Assembly: GCA_023262185.1 (NCBI GenBank)
Contig: JALRDO010000005.1
Coordinates: 1 to 64,000, forward strand
Length of the DNA stretch: 64,000 bases
Reading direction: 5' to 3'
Origin: Flavobacteriaceae bacterium
Lineage (GTDB): Bacteria > Bacteroidota > Bacteroidia > Flavobacteriales > Flavobacteriaceae
Below, one piece after another: positions 40,899-55,074 of this stretch. The number at the start of each line of letters is the position of its first letter. Position 1 is the stretch's first letter. The notes beneath the pieces were generated by a model. It saw only the letters and a program-made list of their open reading frames with translations, did not search any database and was not told the origin of the DNA. A program made the translations under genes and the position numbers.

Positions 40899-41956
40899 AA
40901 AAAACGTTAACCATTAATCTTTCTGGCCTGGTCTATCACATCGATGAAGACGCTTACACCAAACTGCAAGACTATCTAGATTCGATAAAGGCCTATCTCG
41001 ACAATACACTCGGAAAAGATGAAATCATTGCGGATATCGAAAATCGCATTGCTGAACTCTTTTCGAGCAAAAACAAATCAGTGATCTCTATAGAAGACGT
41101 TGAAGAAGTGATTGTGATCATGGGACAACCCGAAGACTATGTGTCTGAAGAAGATGCCCCGAAACAAGAGCGCACTCATTTCAAAGAGAGTAGTAAAAAG
41201 CGTCTCTATAGAGATCCTGACAATCAAGTGCTCGGAGGGGTCTGTTCGGGGATCGGCCACTTCACCGGTATAGATCCCGTCTGGGTACGCCTTATTTTCT
41301 TGGCACTGCTGTTTAGTGGCGTCTCTGCGATCTTCTACTTTGTGCTTTGGATCATTATCCCAAAGGCTATTAGCATCTCACAAAAACTAGAGATGAAAGG
41401 AAAAGCGGCCACTTTCAGCAACATTGAGGATTTCGTGAAAGAGAGTTATCAGAACGTGAAAGAGGACCTTAAAAATGTCAACTTCAAAGGCGCCCAACAC
41501 AAGGCTCAAGAAGGAGCAAAGGGGTTTTTCGCTTTCATTGGAGAGCTGTTCAGCGCACTCTTCAAAGCCATAGGAAAATTACTAAGCATCATAGTTGAAA
41601 TCGTGGGAAAGCTTTTCGGAGTGATCATTATCGCAGTGACACTCGTATTCTTAATCGTTATAACCGTTAGTTTCATCGTTGGAAGTTTCATCGATGTTCA
41701 CATAGGCAATGACATTCTAATGCTCCCAGGTTTTCAATACATGGAATCGAATTGGGGCGGACCTTATCATCCGATATTCTATCACATCAGTATGGTGTTG
41801 ACCTTCGGAATACCAGCATTCAGCCTACTCTTGGTTGCTCTTCAATTGTTATTCAAGAACATGGGACGTCTTTCAGGCAGTGTCAAAATCGGAATGCTCG
41901 CCGTGTGGATGATCGCACTCATCACTTTCATCGTAATGAGTCTCACACGATTTTAA
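40895..41956 (+). CDS. PspC-domain membrane protein
   Basis: A 353-residue protein. An N-terminal soluble domain of about 85 residues (MKKTLTINLSGLVYHIDEDA onward, ending EVIVIMGQPEDY) is followed by a PspC domain at about 105-165 (LYRDPDNQVLGGVCSGIGHFTGIDPVWVRLIFLALLF). An amphipathic linker and four more membrane helices follow. PspC proteins respond to envelope stress. No PspA is present, so this is the PadR-linked Bacteroidota form. Its TAA stop shares the four bases TTAA with the stop of the convergent gene. Confidence 0.9.
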   Translation: MKKTLTINLSGLVYHIDEDAYTKLQDYLDSIKAYLDNTLGKDEIIADIENRIAELFSSKNKSVISIEDVEEVIVIMGQPEDYVSEEDAPKQERTHFKESSKKRLYRDPDNQVLGGVCSGIGHFTGIDPVWVRLIFLALLFSGVSAIFYFVLWIIIPKAISISQKLEMKGKAATFSNIEDFVKESYQNVKEDLKNVNFKGAQHKAQEGAKGFFAFIGELFSALFKAIGKLLSIIVEIVGKLFGVIIIAVTLVFLIVITVSFIVGSFIDVHIGNDILMLPGFQYMESNWGGPYHPIFYHISMVLTFGIPAFSLLLVALQLLFKNMGRLSGSVKIGMLAVWMIALITFIVMSLTRF

Positions 41957-43539
41957 AGGCGTGAGGCCTTTACCGATTGTGCATTTTTGCGCGCTACCAC
42001 CTCGGCCAAAGGGGTTGAGCTGATATGGCTTTCGAGCCATGACAAGACGTCCAAATAAAGAAAAGAGCGCCGCTCGTAGTAGTCTTCTTCTAGAGGTAGC
42101 AACTGCCCGTGTAGCGCTCTAAATTTTTCTTTCAAATCTTGAGGGTATACCGATCCTAGCTCGCGTATGAATTGAATGAGCAGGCGCTGCACCTGATGCA
42201 GATCGTTCATCCGAATCAAGAAGCGGTAGGTGCTTAACAAAAGGCGGTCAAGATCGTCATCTAACCCGGCTTCAAAGTGTGCAATTACGTCTAGGATACG
42301 CGAAAAACACAAGAGATCTTCTCGCATCGTCAGAGAGGAATTCGCAATGATTGGCCTCAAATAGGCAATGCACTGCGTATAATTGGCGGCGCCAAAATAC
42401 ATGCAAGCCATTTTATAATTCAACATCATCACATGGTGTGCATCGATCTGATTCTCAAAAGTCTTCACCCCTTCTTTCACCTCAGCAACTAGCTTTAATC
42501 CTTCGTTAAAGGTGCCCTTTAAAAAATGAAGGTTCATTTCATTGTTGACTCGATATAAAAAAGCGAGTGCTTGGGTATTAGTGTTTTTCGGAAAAGCATC
42601 TGAGGCAGTGGTTTCACGAAGTGTCTCGAGTGTGGTTTTGAACTTCTCAGGGTGTCTCAATAGCAGAAGAGACTCCATCAAATAGTTGTTCGCCTTTAGA
42701 TAAAAAATGGGGTGCGAGGTGAGCATTTCAGGGTGCTGTTCAAAAAGGTAAACCCAACGAGAAGCGTGCTTAAAAAGCCCTAAAAAGTCTTGAGTTATCA
42801 TGCTATACCAAACATGTGCCTTTGCATACCATAGACGCTCTCTAAAACCCAACTGCTCGTAATCAACTTTTGGAAGTTCTCTAAAGAAAAACTGAGTGAT
42901 ATCGCGGTATTCATCGTCACTTTTGACGTATCCGGCCTTGAGCAATCGCTCGTAGAGCAAAAGCGATAAATTCGACAGTTGGCTGCAGAGCATATTGGCC
43001 TCACCGAGTTCTCTAGCATCAGAAACTAAGGCTTCGGTTCGGTTACTCATACTTCGCGTGATGTACTGGGATTCAATGATTTTTTCAAACTCAACAATTT
43101 CGTATTGCGTGTACTTTTCATCCCATTTTTTTGCCATTTGTTTGGCCTTCTCTAGAATCTTTAAGCTCTGACGGTACAATCCTTTCTGATAGAGAACCGT
43201 AGCAAAATCGAGTTGTTCACGAATGAGCATGCGCGGATTTTGAATACTCGGATTCAACCTCAACGAAGTGAGCAATTGCTTGTAAAGGTGCGATTTGAGA
43301 TTTGCCAACTGCGTGCGAGACACAAAAGATTGCTTGAGCAGTTCACGCTCGTCGTAGGCCTCGGCGTGATCGAAAAAATCAAATAATTGGATGAATTTTG
43401 AATCGCGGTGCCCTTCAATTCTATTGGCGTAGAGCTTAAATTGTCGTTTTTGTGCCTTAGTCAGTGACTTTATGAGCAAAAAGACCGGATCTTGCATATT
43501 TTTAGGTGTCGCCGGATATTTTTTGTTAACTCTCTGCAT
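41953..43539 (-). CDS. Hypothetical large helical (TPR-like) protein
   Basis: A 528-residue soluble protein without signal peptide. It is almost wholly alpha-helical with repeated helix pairs, for example ILEKAKQMAKKWDEKYTQYEIVEFEKIIESQYI and AQYTQCIAYLRPII-like segments, resembling tetratricopeptide repeats. The opening LLIKSLTKAQKRQFKLYA is characteristic of a conserved Bacteroidota family of unknown function. A second ATG at 43497 (MQDPVFLLIKS) is an equally likely start. No catalytic motif is seen, and a scaffold role is a guess. Confidence 0.75.
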   Translation of the reverse strand: MQRVNKKYPATPKNMQDPVFLLIKSLTKAQKRQFKLYANRIEGHRDSKFIQLFDFFDHAEAYDERELLKQSFVSRTQLANLKSHLYKQLLTSLRLNPSIQNPRMLIREQLDFATVLYQKGLYRQSLKILEKAKQMAKKWDEKYTQYEIVEFEKIIESQYITRSMSNRTEALVSDARELGEANMLCSQLSNLSLLLYERLLKAGYVKSDDEYRDITQFFFRELPKVDYEQLGFRERLWYAKAHVWYSMITQDFLGLFKHASRWVYLFEQHPEMLTSHPIFYLKANNYLMESLLLLRHPEKFKTTLETLRETTASDAFPKNTNTQALAFLYRVNNEMNLHFLKGTFNEGLKLVAEVKEGVKTFENQIDAHHVMMLNYKMACMYFGAANYTQCIAYLRPIIANSSLTMREDLLCFSRILDVIAHFEAGLDDDLDRLLLSTYRFLIRMNDLHQVQRLLIQFIRELGSVYPQDLKEKFRALHGQLLPLEEDYYERRSFLYLDVLSWLESHISSTPLAEVVARKNAQSVKASRL

Positions 43540-43619
43540 ACTAGTAAAATAGGGTCCTAATAAAAGGGTTGAATTTCGTAATATAATCTGTGATACCCAA
43601 ATAAAGCATCAAAGAGCAG

Positions 43620-43641
43620 TTATTTTTGAATTTAATATTTG
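43620..43641 (+). promoter_or_regulatory. leuA promoter/operator element shared with ilvD
   Basis: TATTTTTG (43621-43628) fits TAnnTTTG, and the following bases extend it to a 21-base element ending AATATTTG at 43641. It matches 19 of 21 bases on the opposite strand at 55006-54986, upstream of ilvD. An exact 8-base TTGAATTT inside it (43626) recurs 57 bases upstream (43569). It ends 11 bases before the leuA ATG at 43653. Confidence 0.55.
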
Positions 43642-43652
43642 CGTAAGGCGCT

Positions 43653-44807
43653 ATGGGCAAAGAAAAAGTAGAAATTTTCGACACCACTCTGAGAGACGGA
43701 GAGCAGGTCCCTGGCTGTAAGCTAGACACCAAAAGCAAACTTGAAATCGCCGAACAACTCGACGCTCTAGGGGTAGATATCATAGAGGCCGGATTCCCCA
43801 TTTCTAGCCCAGGTGATTTCAAAGCGGTTGAAGCCGTTGCAAAATTGGTCAAGAACGCAAGAGTATGCGGATTGACCCGCGCTGTTGAAAAAGACATTGA
43901 CGTGGCTGCTGAAGCATTAAAGTCAGCCATTAGACCTCGTATTCATACCGGAATCGGCACTTCTGACTCTCACATCACTCACAAGTTTAGAGCGACTAGA
44001 GATCAGATCATCGAACGTGCAGAGAAGGCAGTCGCTCACGCCAAGCGCTATGTCGAAGACGTCGAGTTCTATGCAGAAGATGCCGGTCGAACAGACAATG
44101 AATTTTTGGCCCGTGTATGCGAAAAGGTAATTGCCGCCGGAGCCACCGTGCTTAACATTCCAGACACCACAGGATATTGCCTGCCTGAAGACTACGGTGC
44201 AAAAATTGCCTATCTGAAAGCGAACGTCAAGGGAATCGAAAAGGCCACCCTTTCGTGCCATTGCCACAACGACCTCGGTCTAGCCACGGCGAACGCCATT
44301 TCTGGAGCGCGTAACGGAGCACGCCAAATCGAGTGTACCATTAACGGTATCGGAGAGCGGGCAGGAAACACCGCTCTTGAAGAAGTGGTGATGATCATGC
44401 GTCAACATCCAGGCCTCGACCTTTACACCGACATCAACACCAAGCTACTCAATTCAATCAGCCATTTAGTCTCTGATCGCATGGGTATGTTTGTTCAAGC
44501 CAATAAAGCCATCGTCGGCGCCAATGCCTTCGCCCACAGCTCAGGCATACACCAAGACGGTGTGATCAAGAATAGAGAAACCTATGAAATCATAGATCCG
44601 CTTGAAGTAGGTGTCGATCACTCGGCTATAGTGCTCACTGCCAGAAGTGGCCGTGCAGCCCTCGCCTACCGCGCTAAAAACTTAGGGTTCGAATTTGACA
44701 AATTGATGCTCGATACCATGTATGAGCAATTCTTGATTATGGCCGATTCGAAAAAAGAAATCGACGATAACGACATCGAAGTATTAGTAAAACAAGTGAA
44801 GCAATAA
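43653..44807 (+). CDS. leuA: 2-isopropylmalate synthase, short form without regulatory domain
   Basis: A 384-residue enzyme joining acetyl-CoA and 2-oxoisovalerate, the first committed step of leucine synthesis. The TIM barrel begins [18 protein letters not shown]; metal His residues lie in [33 protein letters not shown] and [15 protein letters not shown] follow. The protein stops near residue 384 after the linker helices, so the C-terminal LeuA allosteric domain (about 120 residues) is absent, and ordinary leucine feedback through it is not possible. It is the first gene of the leu operon and sits 18 bases before leuC. Confidence 0.95.
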
Positions 44808-46844: not shown

Positions 46845-48377
46845 ATGAATAAGAAACAACGGCCGATTGAGATCATGGACACCACGCTACGCGATGGTGA
46901 ACAAACTTCTGGCGTTTCTTTTACTGCGCCAGAGAAGTTAACCGTAGCTCAGCTTTTGTTAGAAGAGTTGCAGGTAGATCGCATTGAAATCGCCTCGGCG
47001 AGAGTTTCAAAAGGAGAACAAGAGGCGGTGAATCGCATTACCTCATGGGCCTATGATAAAGGGTTACTTGACCGTGTTGAGGTACTCACCTTTGTCGATC
47101 AAGGGGTTTCCCTAGACTGGATGGAGGCTTCAGGAGCAAAGGTGCAGAATTTGCTCACTAAAGGTTCGTTGAATCACCTGACCCATCAGCTCAAGCAGAC
47201 ACCAGAACAACATTTCAAAAACGTCGCTGAAAACCTTCAAGAAGCTCAAAAAAGAGGCATCCGCTCAAACGTATACCTCGAAGACTGGAGCAACGGAATG
47301 CGCAATTCAAAAGACTATGTGTTCGACTATCTCGATCATCTTGTCAAACAGCCCGTTGAACGCATCTTATTACCTGATACACTAGGGGTGCTCACTCCAG
47401 ATGAGACTTCAAGTTATCTACGCGAGATTCTTTCGCGCTATCCTGGTGTTCGTTTTGATTTTCACGGCCATAACGATTACGATCTTGGAGTAGCCAATGT
47501 GCTCGAAGCTGTTAAAGCCGGAGTCTATGGCTTACATCTTACAGTCAATGGCATGGGAGAACGTGCCGGAAATGCAGCTTTAGCAAGCAGCATCGCAGTG
47601 ATCAACGACTTTGTTCCTGAAGTAAAGACCCGTGTAAAAGAAAAGGCGCTCTACAAGGTGAGTCAACTCGTTGCCACCTTTAGTGGGTTTCATATTCCGG
47701 TAAACAAGCCGGTTGTAGGTGCGAATGTATTTACACAGACCGCCGGAATACACGCAGACGGAGACGCCAAAAACAACCTTTATTTTAACGATCTTTTACC
47801 CGAGCGATTCGGCCGCAAACGCTCTTATGCCCTGGGTAAAACTTCAGGCAAAGCCAATATTCTTAAAAACCTCAACAGCCTCGGTATCTCCCTAGGAGAA
47901 GAAGAGCTGAAAAAGGTCACCGCTCAAGTGATAGCCCTTGGAGACAAGAAGCAGAAGGTGACCCTAGACGACCTGCCTTATATCATCTCTGATGTGCTAG
48001 GTGAAAGTGCCTATGCACAACACGTTAAGATTGAGTCATATGTCTTGACCCACGCCAAGGGCCTTCAACCTTCAACCACTGTGAGCGTTCGCATTGACGA
48101 TCAAGTGTATGAAGAAAATGCCTGCGGAGACGGTCAATACGACGCCTTCTTAAATGCCATTCGAAAAATTTACAAACAACTTTCTCGTGAGCTTCCTCAG
48201 CTGATAGACTACTTCGTTCATATACCCCCTGGTAGTCACTCTGACGCCCTGTGCGAAACAACCATCACCTGGAAGACAGCCACGCGCGAATTCATTACTA
48301 GAGGTCTAGACTCTGATCAGACCGTATCGGCCATCAAGGCCACTGAAAAAATGCTGAACCAAATCTATACAGCCTAA
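46845..48377 (+). CDS. cimA: Probable (R)-citramalate synthase
   Basis: A 510-residue LeuA-superfamily synthase with its own C-terminal regulatory domain (about 385-510). Catalytic blocks: [39 protein letters not shown] and FTQTAGIHADGD. From memory of Leptospira interrogans citramalate synthase, the pyruvate-pocket residues Leu81, Leu104 and Tyr144 are all kept here at the same numbers (in EVLTFVDQ, NLLTKGS and NVYLEDWSNG), along with ARVSKGE and LPERFGRKRSYALGK. Such genes are often annotated as a second 2-isopropylmalate synthase. With LeuCD and LeuB it would make 2-oxobutyrate from pyruvate and acetyl-CoA for isoleucine. Confidence 0.82.
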   Translation: MNKKQRPIEIMDTTLRDGEQTSGVSFTAPEKLTVAQLLLEELQVDRIEIASARVSKGEQEAVNRITSWAYDKGLLDRVEVLTFVDQGVSLDWMEASGAKVQNLLTKGSLNHLTHQLKQTPEQHFKNVAENLQEAQKRGIRSNVYLEDWSNGMRNSKDYVFDYLDHLVKQPVERILLPDTLGVLTPDETSSYLREILSRYPGVRFDFHGHNDYDLGVANVLEAVKAGVYGLHLTVNGMGERAGNAALASSIAVINDFVPEVKTRVKEKALYKVSQLVATFSGFHIPVNKPVVGANVFTQTAGIHADGDAKNNLYFNDLLPERFGRKRSYALGKTSGKANILKNLNSLGISLGEEELKKVTAQVIALGDKKQKVTLDDLPYIISDVLGESAYAQHVKIESYVLTHAKGLQPSTTVSVRIDDQVYEENACGDGQYDAFLNAIRKIYKQLSRELPQLIDYFVHIPPGSHSDALCETTITWKTATREFITRGLDSDQTVSAIKATEKMLNQIYTA

Positions 48378-53234: not shown

Positions 53235-54917
53235 CTATAGATCAGTCACACAGCCTTTAGAAGCTGTTGAGACATTTTTAATGTATTTATAAAGCACCCC
53301 GCTTTTGAATTTGTACTCAGGCTGCTTCCACTTTTGAGCTCGTACCTTCATTTCATCATCGCTGATGTGTAGCGTGAGGGTGTTTGTTTCGGCATTGATT
53401 TCGATGAGGTCTCCATCTTGTACCAAGGCGATTGGTCCGCCTTCTTGAGCCTCAGGAACGATGTGTCCTACTACGAACCCGTGTGTTCCTCCTGAGAAGC
53501 GCCCGTCTGTAATTAAGGCCACGTCCTTTCCGAGGCCAGCTCCCATAATGGCGGCTGTAGGCTTCAGCATTTCGGGCATTCCTGGTCCTCCTTTTGGACC
53601 TTCATAGCGAATGACCACTACATCTCCGGGTTTTACTTCACCTTTTCTAATCCCATCATTAGCGGCATACTCTCCTTCGAAAACGCGTGACGGGCCTTTG
53701 AATTCTAACCCTTCTTTTCCTGTGATTTTAGCTACTGAACCCTCAGGGGCTAAATTTCCTTTCAATATGCGAATGTGTCCTGTGGCCTTGATCGGCTTAT
53801 CGAGTGGATAAATGACTTTTTGATCGGCTTTCAATCCCTCTACCTCCTGAAGGTTTTCAGCGATCGTCTTACCCGTTACGGTCATACAATCCCCGTGAAG
53901 CATGTCGTTCTCAAGCATAAACTTGAGAACCGCTGGCACACCACCTACACGGTGCAGATCTTCCATGAGGTATTTTCCTGAAGGCTTCAAGTCAGCCAAA
54001 AATGGAGTGCGGTCCATTAGCTCTTGAAAATCGTCTATGGTAAAGTCAATTTCTGCGGCCTTGGCAATCGCCAAGAAATGCAAGACAGCATTGGTTGATC
54101 CGCCTAAAACCGCGATCAATCTGATTGCATTCTCAAATGACCTACGTGTCACAATATCTTTTGGTTTCAGGTCGCGCTCAAGCAAGTGCTTAATTGCCGC
54201 GCCTACCTTGTCGCACTCGTCTACTTTGTTTTGACTTGTTGCCGGATTTGATGAGTTATAAGGAAGTGCCATCCCGAGTGCCTCAATGGCAGAAGCCATA
54301 GTGTTGGCCGTGTACATTCCTCCGCAGGCACCTGCACCAGGACATGCATTTTCAACAACCGCATTAAACTCGGCCTCATCTATCTTTCCGGCTACTTTTT
54401 CTCCCCAGGCCTCGAAGGCAGAAACTACATCTAGTTTTTTGTGGTTGTGGCAACCAGGAGCAATCGTTCCGCCGTACACCAGAATGCTAGGACGATTTAA
54501 ACGCAGCATCGCCATGAGGGCGCCTGGCATGTTTTTATCACATCCTACCACGGGCACAACGGCATCATATGACATCGCCTGAACTACCGTTTCGATAGAG
54601 TCAGCAATAATATCGCGCGATGGTAAAGAGAATCGCATCCCGGGAGTTCCCATAGAAATCCCATCACTGACTCCGATGGTATTGAATATCAAACCCACCA
54701 TATCAGAAGCCATAACGCCCTTCTTGATGTCGACTGAAAGGTAGTTCAAGTGCATATTGCAGGGGTTTCCTTCATAACCCGTACTCGCGATCCCAACAAA
54801 AGGTTTCTTAAAGTCTTCTTTTGTCAAGCCAATAGCATGAAGCATGGCTTGTGCTGCAGGCTGAGTCGGATCTTGGCTGACGGCTTTACTGTAGCGGTTC
54901 AAGGTATTGTTACTCAT
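53235..54917 (-). CDS. ilvD: Dihydroxy-acid dehydratase
   Basis: A 560-residue iron-sulfur dehydratase of the IlvD/Edd family, the third common step to valine and isoleucine. Cluster cysteines are in the segment near residue 50 ([12 protein letters not shown]), in [11 protein letters not shown] and in [19 protein letters not shown]; the C-terminal block [22 protein letters not shown] is also complete. Three cysteines in those positions fit the [2Fe-2S] or [4Fe-4S] site. It is the first gene of the ilv operon with a 218-base divergent upstream region that carries repeats. Confidence 0.97.
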
Positions 54918-54985
54918 TTGATTCTGAACGTGATTTCTAACGAAAGTACCGCCGGATTTTTCAGAAAACTACAACAGTTTGAAAA

Positions 54986-55074
54986 CAAATATTATGTTCA
55001 AAAATATTATTTTACAATAATTCACTCATATTCAACATTTTATATGATATTTTTCACTTATATTCAAAAATATA
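54986..55074 (-). promoter_or_regulatory. Three phased TTCAA-centred repeats upstream of ilvD
   Basis: TTCAA cores occur at 54997, 55031 and 55063, spaced 34 and 32 bases, so they lie on nearly one face of the helix. Copies two and three share TTCACTyATATTCAA (55021-55035 and 55053-55067, 14/15). Copies one and three contain CAAAAATA (minus-strand TATTTTTG, a -7-like box). An 8-base inverted repeat ATATTTTT/AAAAATAT spans 55047-55073. A regulator-binding array or multiple promoters would fit. Confidence 0.5.

Follow-up and report, generated by a model that had tools for sequence, protein, structure and literature searches.

A putative operator shared by the leu and ilv operons of Flavobacteriaceae lies at a fixed distance upstream of the -7 promoter box

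Introduction

The sites of Lrp/AsnC (feast/famine) regulators are exemplified by those of Escherichia coli Lrp at ilvIH. Control of ilv/leu operons from an upstream site is also the mode of action of IlvY (E. coli) and NdgR (Streptomyces), which the putative regulator considered here resembles in this respect; one report on NdgR additionally deals with its effects on membrane fatty acids (PMC10331944). The Bacteroidota sigma-A -7 box has the consensus TAnnTTTG and is located at -12 to -5, and in F. psychrophilum RNA-level control, by leader peptide attenuation or a riboswitch, has been suggested upstream of other amino acid operons (PMC9723704). Hardly any regulator of amino acid synthesis has been described for marine flavobacteria in the open-access literature.

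The leu and ilv operons of the Flavobacteriaceae bacterium studied here lie in one window, the whole 64,000-nucleotide stretch that was analysed. At leu the -7 box (43621-43628) fits the sigma-A consensus exactly, and the ilv box TACTTTCG and the TAnnTTCG form found in the family are close variants. Unlike the -7 box, the candidate operator is a separate element located 52-53 bases further upstream. Its association with branched-chain amino acid genes, the presence of several phased upstream sites and an AT-rich-centred palindrome (TTGA-TAA-TCAA) recall Lrp/AsnC sites, and the genome carries three Lrp/AsnC genes. However, the main site, TTGAACATCGTAA, has no clear palindrome, unlike Lrp/AsnC sites. 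As for IlvY, the sole LysR-type gene found in this genome (~94% complete) resembles OxyR by eye and is near a thioredoxin reductase-like gene.

The 21-base match

The plus-strand sequence at 43621-43641 (TATTTTTGAATTTAATATTTG) and the minus-strand sequence at 55006-54986 (TATTTTTGAACATAATATTTG) are identical at 19 of 21 bases. The initial annotation, which began the element at 43620, one base too early, was correct in stating that a near-identical element precedes both operons. With up to 3 mismatches, the 21-mer pattern occurs at these two sites only in the window, where shuffles lead to an expectation of 0.03. In the whole genome the next-best sites carry 3 mismatches and none other falls within 2. 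The left end of the element (TATTTTTG, 43621-43628 and 55006-54999) is an exact TAnnTTTG box, as had been proposed, but the string 'TAATATTTG' does not fit that consensus.

Identity at 19 of 21 bases was reached in none of 1000 shuffles of the leu and ilv spacer pair (maximum 18). When all 18 spacers of the window were shuffled 40 times, no shuffle (0/40) gave a pair with at least 19 identities, and 18 was seen 6 times in total. The match is therefore unusual, though the pair was chosen post hoc from one window. A third, partial copy (TATTTTTGAATATAAG), missed by the earlier description, is found at 55072-55057 on the minus strand. A search of 148 relatives with the 21-mer pattern (2 mismatches) returned only scattered AT-rich matches and was uninformative.

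Elements upstream of leuA and ilvD

The features of the two upstream regions are as follows.

43569-43582, plus strand: leu operator-like site TTGAATTTCGTAAT, 52 bases before the -7 box and 84 before the leuA start
43621-43628, plus strand: leu -7 box TATTTTTG, exact TAnnTTTG, invariant in 6 same-genus genomes
43629-43641, plus strand: right part of the leu 21-mer AATTTAATATTTG, predicted start-site region, poorly conserved
43653-44807, plus strand: leuA, first gene of leuA-leuC-leuD-cimA-like-leuB
55055-55067, minus strand: ilv site 1 TTGAATATAAGTG, 66 bases upstream of site 3
55025-55035, minus strand: ilv site 2 TTGAATATGAG, a degenerate version of the palindrome (C/T)TGATnATCA(A/G) seen in the family, lying 34 bases ahead of site 3
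54986-55006, minus strand: ilv 21-mer of the initial annotation
54988-55001, minus strand: ilv site 3 TTGAACATAATATT, operator-like core within the ilv 21-mer, 53 bases before the -7 box and 84 before the ilvD start
54941-54948, minus strand: ilv -7 box TACTTTCG, TAyTTTCG in four genomes (G000, G008, G005 and G001)
53235-54917, minus strand: ilvD, first gene of ilvD-ilvB-ilvN-ilvC

Alignment of same-genus genomes revealed that the relatives do not keep the same bases of the 21-mer at both operons; instead, different halves are conserved. At leu, two blocks are invariant in the 6 genomes, TCGTAATATA (43576-43585) and TATTTTTGA (43621-43629). The latter comprises the -7 box, whereas G001, G004 and G009 have not retained the right half of the 21-mer. 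At ilv, the right-hand core TTGAA..TAA is invariant, whereas TATTTT is lost in G005 (where the sequence is AACTAGTTGAACATAATATTTG) and G001, and in G008 the box is broken to TATTCTTG. The match thus decays in close relatives, which goes part of the way towards the absence that would have weakened the original claim. The ilv promoter has a -7 box of its own, TAyTTTCG in the 4 genomes listed and a weaker TATTTTTA in 3 others. The 21-mer coincides with the -7 box at leu (offset 0) but is ~58 bases upstream of it at ilv. Since different halves are conserved and ilv possesses a separate -7 box, the leu 21-mer is best described as the -7 promoter box plus an unconserved flank, while the ilv 21-mer overlaps an upstream operator-like site. 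On these alignments, the similarity of the two copies would arise from a leu -7 box and flank that happen to resemble ilv site 3.

The leu operon shows two further peculiarities. The leuA product (43653-44807, plus strand) is 384 aa long and matches 2-isopropylmalate synthase models to ~position 383 of 516; the C-terminal regulatory domain seems to be absent. A full-length citramalate synthase-like gene is found within the operon at 46845-48377.

The shared motif across Flavobacteriaceae

Judged from upstream regions of relatives, the element common to both operons is TTGAAYATnRTAA, with a -7 box of the form TAnnTTYG 52-53 bases downstream of its first base. In the leu region it begins 52 bases upstream of the -7 box that had already been marked, and the leu copy, TTGAATTTCGTAAT, has 2 mismatches to the family leu/leuC consensus TTGAACATCGTAA. 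The comparison comprised 86 ilvD and 32 leuA upstream regions from relatives, with near duplicates removed, and 440 AT-rich upstream regions of other ORFs of the same loci as controls. The spacers of the family set have ~25% GC. Between -200 and -40, TTGRRYRTNRTA was present in 43/86 ilvD, 8/32 leuA and 10/440 control regions; of the 10 control matches, 9 precede leuC and 1 precedes ilvD with another start codon. The motif is thus enriched before the regulon genes and not before others, and the strict match is missing in about half of the ilvD and three quarters of the leuA regions. A de novo motif search recovered the same site (aTTGaATATnaTA) together with the palindrome cTGatAATCA at ilvD. 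TAnnTTYG was enriched in the final 60 bases before both ilvD and leuA. A strict palindrome, ATTGAnnnTCAAT, was considered as the key motif and rejected: some family members have it at ilvD, but there it is the central one of several sites that make up a larger module.

The position of the motif relative to the promoter is fixed. The distance from site to -7 box is 52-53 bases at ilvD, leuA and leuC; ilvD has a second, more distant copy at 117-118 bases. The two operator copies at ilvD are 66 bases apart, and the palindrome TGATnATCA between them follows site 1 by 32-33 bases and precedes site 3 by 33-34; at leuA, the palindrome precedes the operator site by 33-34 bases. For neither operon did any of 5000 shuffles yield an equally good site at the observed spacing from the -7 box. 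The present genome contains 20 matches to TTGAAYATNRTAAT with at most 1 mismatch, only two of which (2/20) are at the family's operator distance before a gene; these are the leuA and ilvD sites, each 84 bases before the start codon.

Genes downstream of the motif

Searching 200 Flavobacteriaceae genomes for the site followed, after 38-41 bases, by TAnnTTYG gave 57 matches, against 9 for a reversed-pattern control. The genes downstream were leuC (19), leuA (12), a fabH-like gene (10), a DMT-family transporter (8), ilvD (1) and others (7), so that 50/57 matches precede leuC, leuA, ilvD, the fabH-like gene or one DMT-family transporter. The upstream gene was co-directional at the fabH-like and transporter loci examined, and the site is therefore not a divergent promoter there. 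Of 247 genomes sampled across the phylum, 7 matched, all Flavobacteriaceae, and no match was found outside this family. Sites, fixed spacing, gene specificity and family restriction are direct observations.

We consider it probable, if less assured than the link between leu and ilv, that Flavobacteriaceae carry a previously undescribed branched-chain amino acid regulon, in which TTGAACATCGTAA is located 52-53 bases before the -7 box and leu, ilv, the fabH-like gene and the DMT transporter obey one regulator. No description of the motif was found among the open-access papers searched. The link to the fabH-like gene suggests that the supply of branched-chain amino acids may be regulated jointly with fatty acid priming. 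A motif of such strict position predicts regulon members and the geometry of activation, and provides a DNA bait for finding the regulator.

Individual loci offer some additional detail. TTGAACATCGTAA precedes the fabH-like ketoacyl-ACP synthase III gene by ~94 bases (L183, L188, L229, L244 and others), and the gene before the fabH-like gene of L182 resembles gcvP by eye. The DMT-family transporter has the site in L230, L231, L235, L237, L243, L267, L277 and L278. Its start codon follows the opening base of the -7 box by only ~12 bases, which predicts a leaderless mRNA; a topoisomerase IV subunit-like gene follows the transporter in the five loci examined.

Alternative explanations

The initial annotation attributed the 21-mer to a shared branched-chain amino acid regulator or to a combined promoter-operator. 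A shared regulator for leu and ilv is well supported by the sequence comparisons, but through a different pairing of sites, and the 21-mer does not appear to be its site. That the 21-mer itself serves as operator or combined promoter-operator at both operons, with the leu regulator site overlapping the start region, is improbable. Its 19/21 identity, its uniqueness in the genome and its rarity in shuffles speak for it, and TTGAATTTAATA at leu is one base off the ilv-type operator TTGAATATAATA, making a second leu operator possible in this small clade. However, the conserved halves differ between the operons, the right half at leu is lost in three relatives, the position relative to the -7 box changes from 0 to ~58 bases, and the family operator sits 52-53 bases from that box.

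Promoters and AT-rich coincidence, with no shared regulator at all, would be favoured by the low GC content of the spacers and by the contribution of the -7 box to the match; this is very unlikely, as base composition cannot yield a family-wide motif, a fixed spacing and near-exclusive placement at branched-chain amino acid and related genes (57 matches versus 9 for the reversed control). Control at the RNA level, by leader peptide attenuation or a riboswitch, has a precedent in flavobacteria, where attenuation of amino acid operons has been reported (PMC9723704), but is hardly credible for leu and ilv. A structured leader between promoter and start codon was not found: no Rfam family matched in the window and the predicted leaders are only ~20 bases. 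Moreover, the conserved sites are upstream of the -7 box and therefore would not be transcribed.

Regulator and mechanism

We assign a probability of roughly 0.8 to the reading that leu and ilv share the upstream operator TTGAAYATnRTAA and are under a branched-chain amino acid regulator acting from phased sites, most likely an Lrp/AsnC protein. Sigma-A type promoters would drive both operons, with leaders of ~20 bases. With its first base 52-53 bases before the -7 box, the operator would span roughly -64 to -52 relative to the predicted start. Family members often have the palindrome TGATnATCA as well, 34 bases upstream of the operator, and at ilvD a further operator copy 66 bases upstream. 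Binding at about -64 to -52 combined with regularly spaced upstream sites is typical of activators in contact with RNA polymerase and of multimers that wrap DNA. A multimeric regulator responsive to branched-chain amino acids may thus bind the phased sites on one helix face and touch RNA polymerase from the -60 position, controlling leu and ilv together and, in relatives, the fabH-like gene and the DMT transporter as well. Protein binding, direction of control, ligand and regulator identity are what we infer here.

Assignment of the putative regulator to Lrp/AsnC is tentative, at somewhat less than even odds; it is favoured because the genome has three such genes and a single LysR-type gene that looks like OxyR. 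No strict copy of the motif was found in 29 Lrp-gene loci, a site at the regulator's own gene being common but not obligatory for an Lrp/AsnC operator. Similarly, no regulator gene recurs near ilv in 80 loci, and among the matches examined none is clearly controlled by the motif. One locus (L177) has a perfect palindrome, TTTCGATTTTCGAAA, ~75-90 bases before an AsnC-like gene at 1288; it differs from TTGAAYATnRTAA and is possibly that gene's own operator.

Some matches overlap other reading frames. The leu match was flagged inside an antisense ORF (43541-43930) that overlaps leuA and looks spurious, and another of the 20 loose matches in this genome (L222), although only 156 bases ahead of an ORF, falls within a 533-aa gene on the opposite strand. 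On the minus strand, the leu site at 43576-43585 reads TATATTACGA, a possible -7 box of the divergent gene 41953-43539, which has a weak BT_2802 family match; the invariant TCGTAATATA could therefore also serve the divergent gene at 43539.
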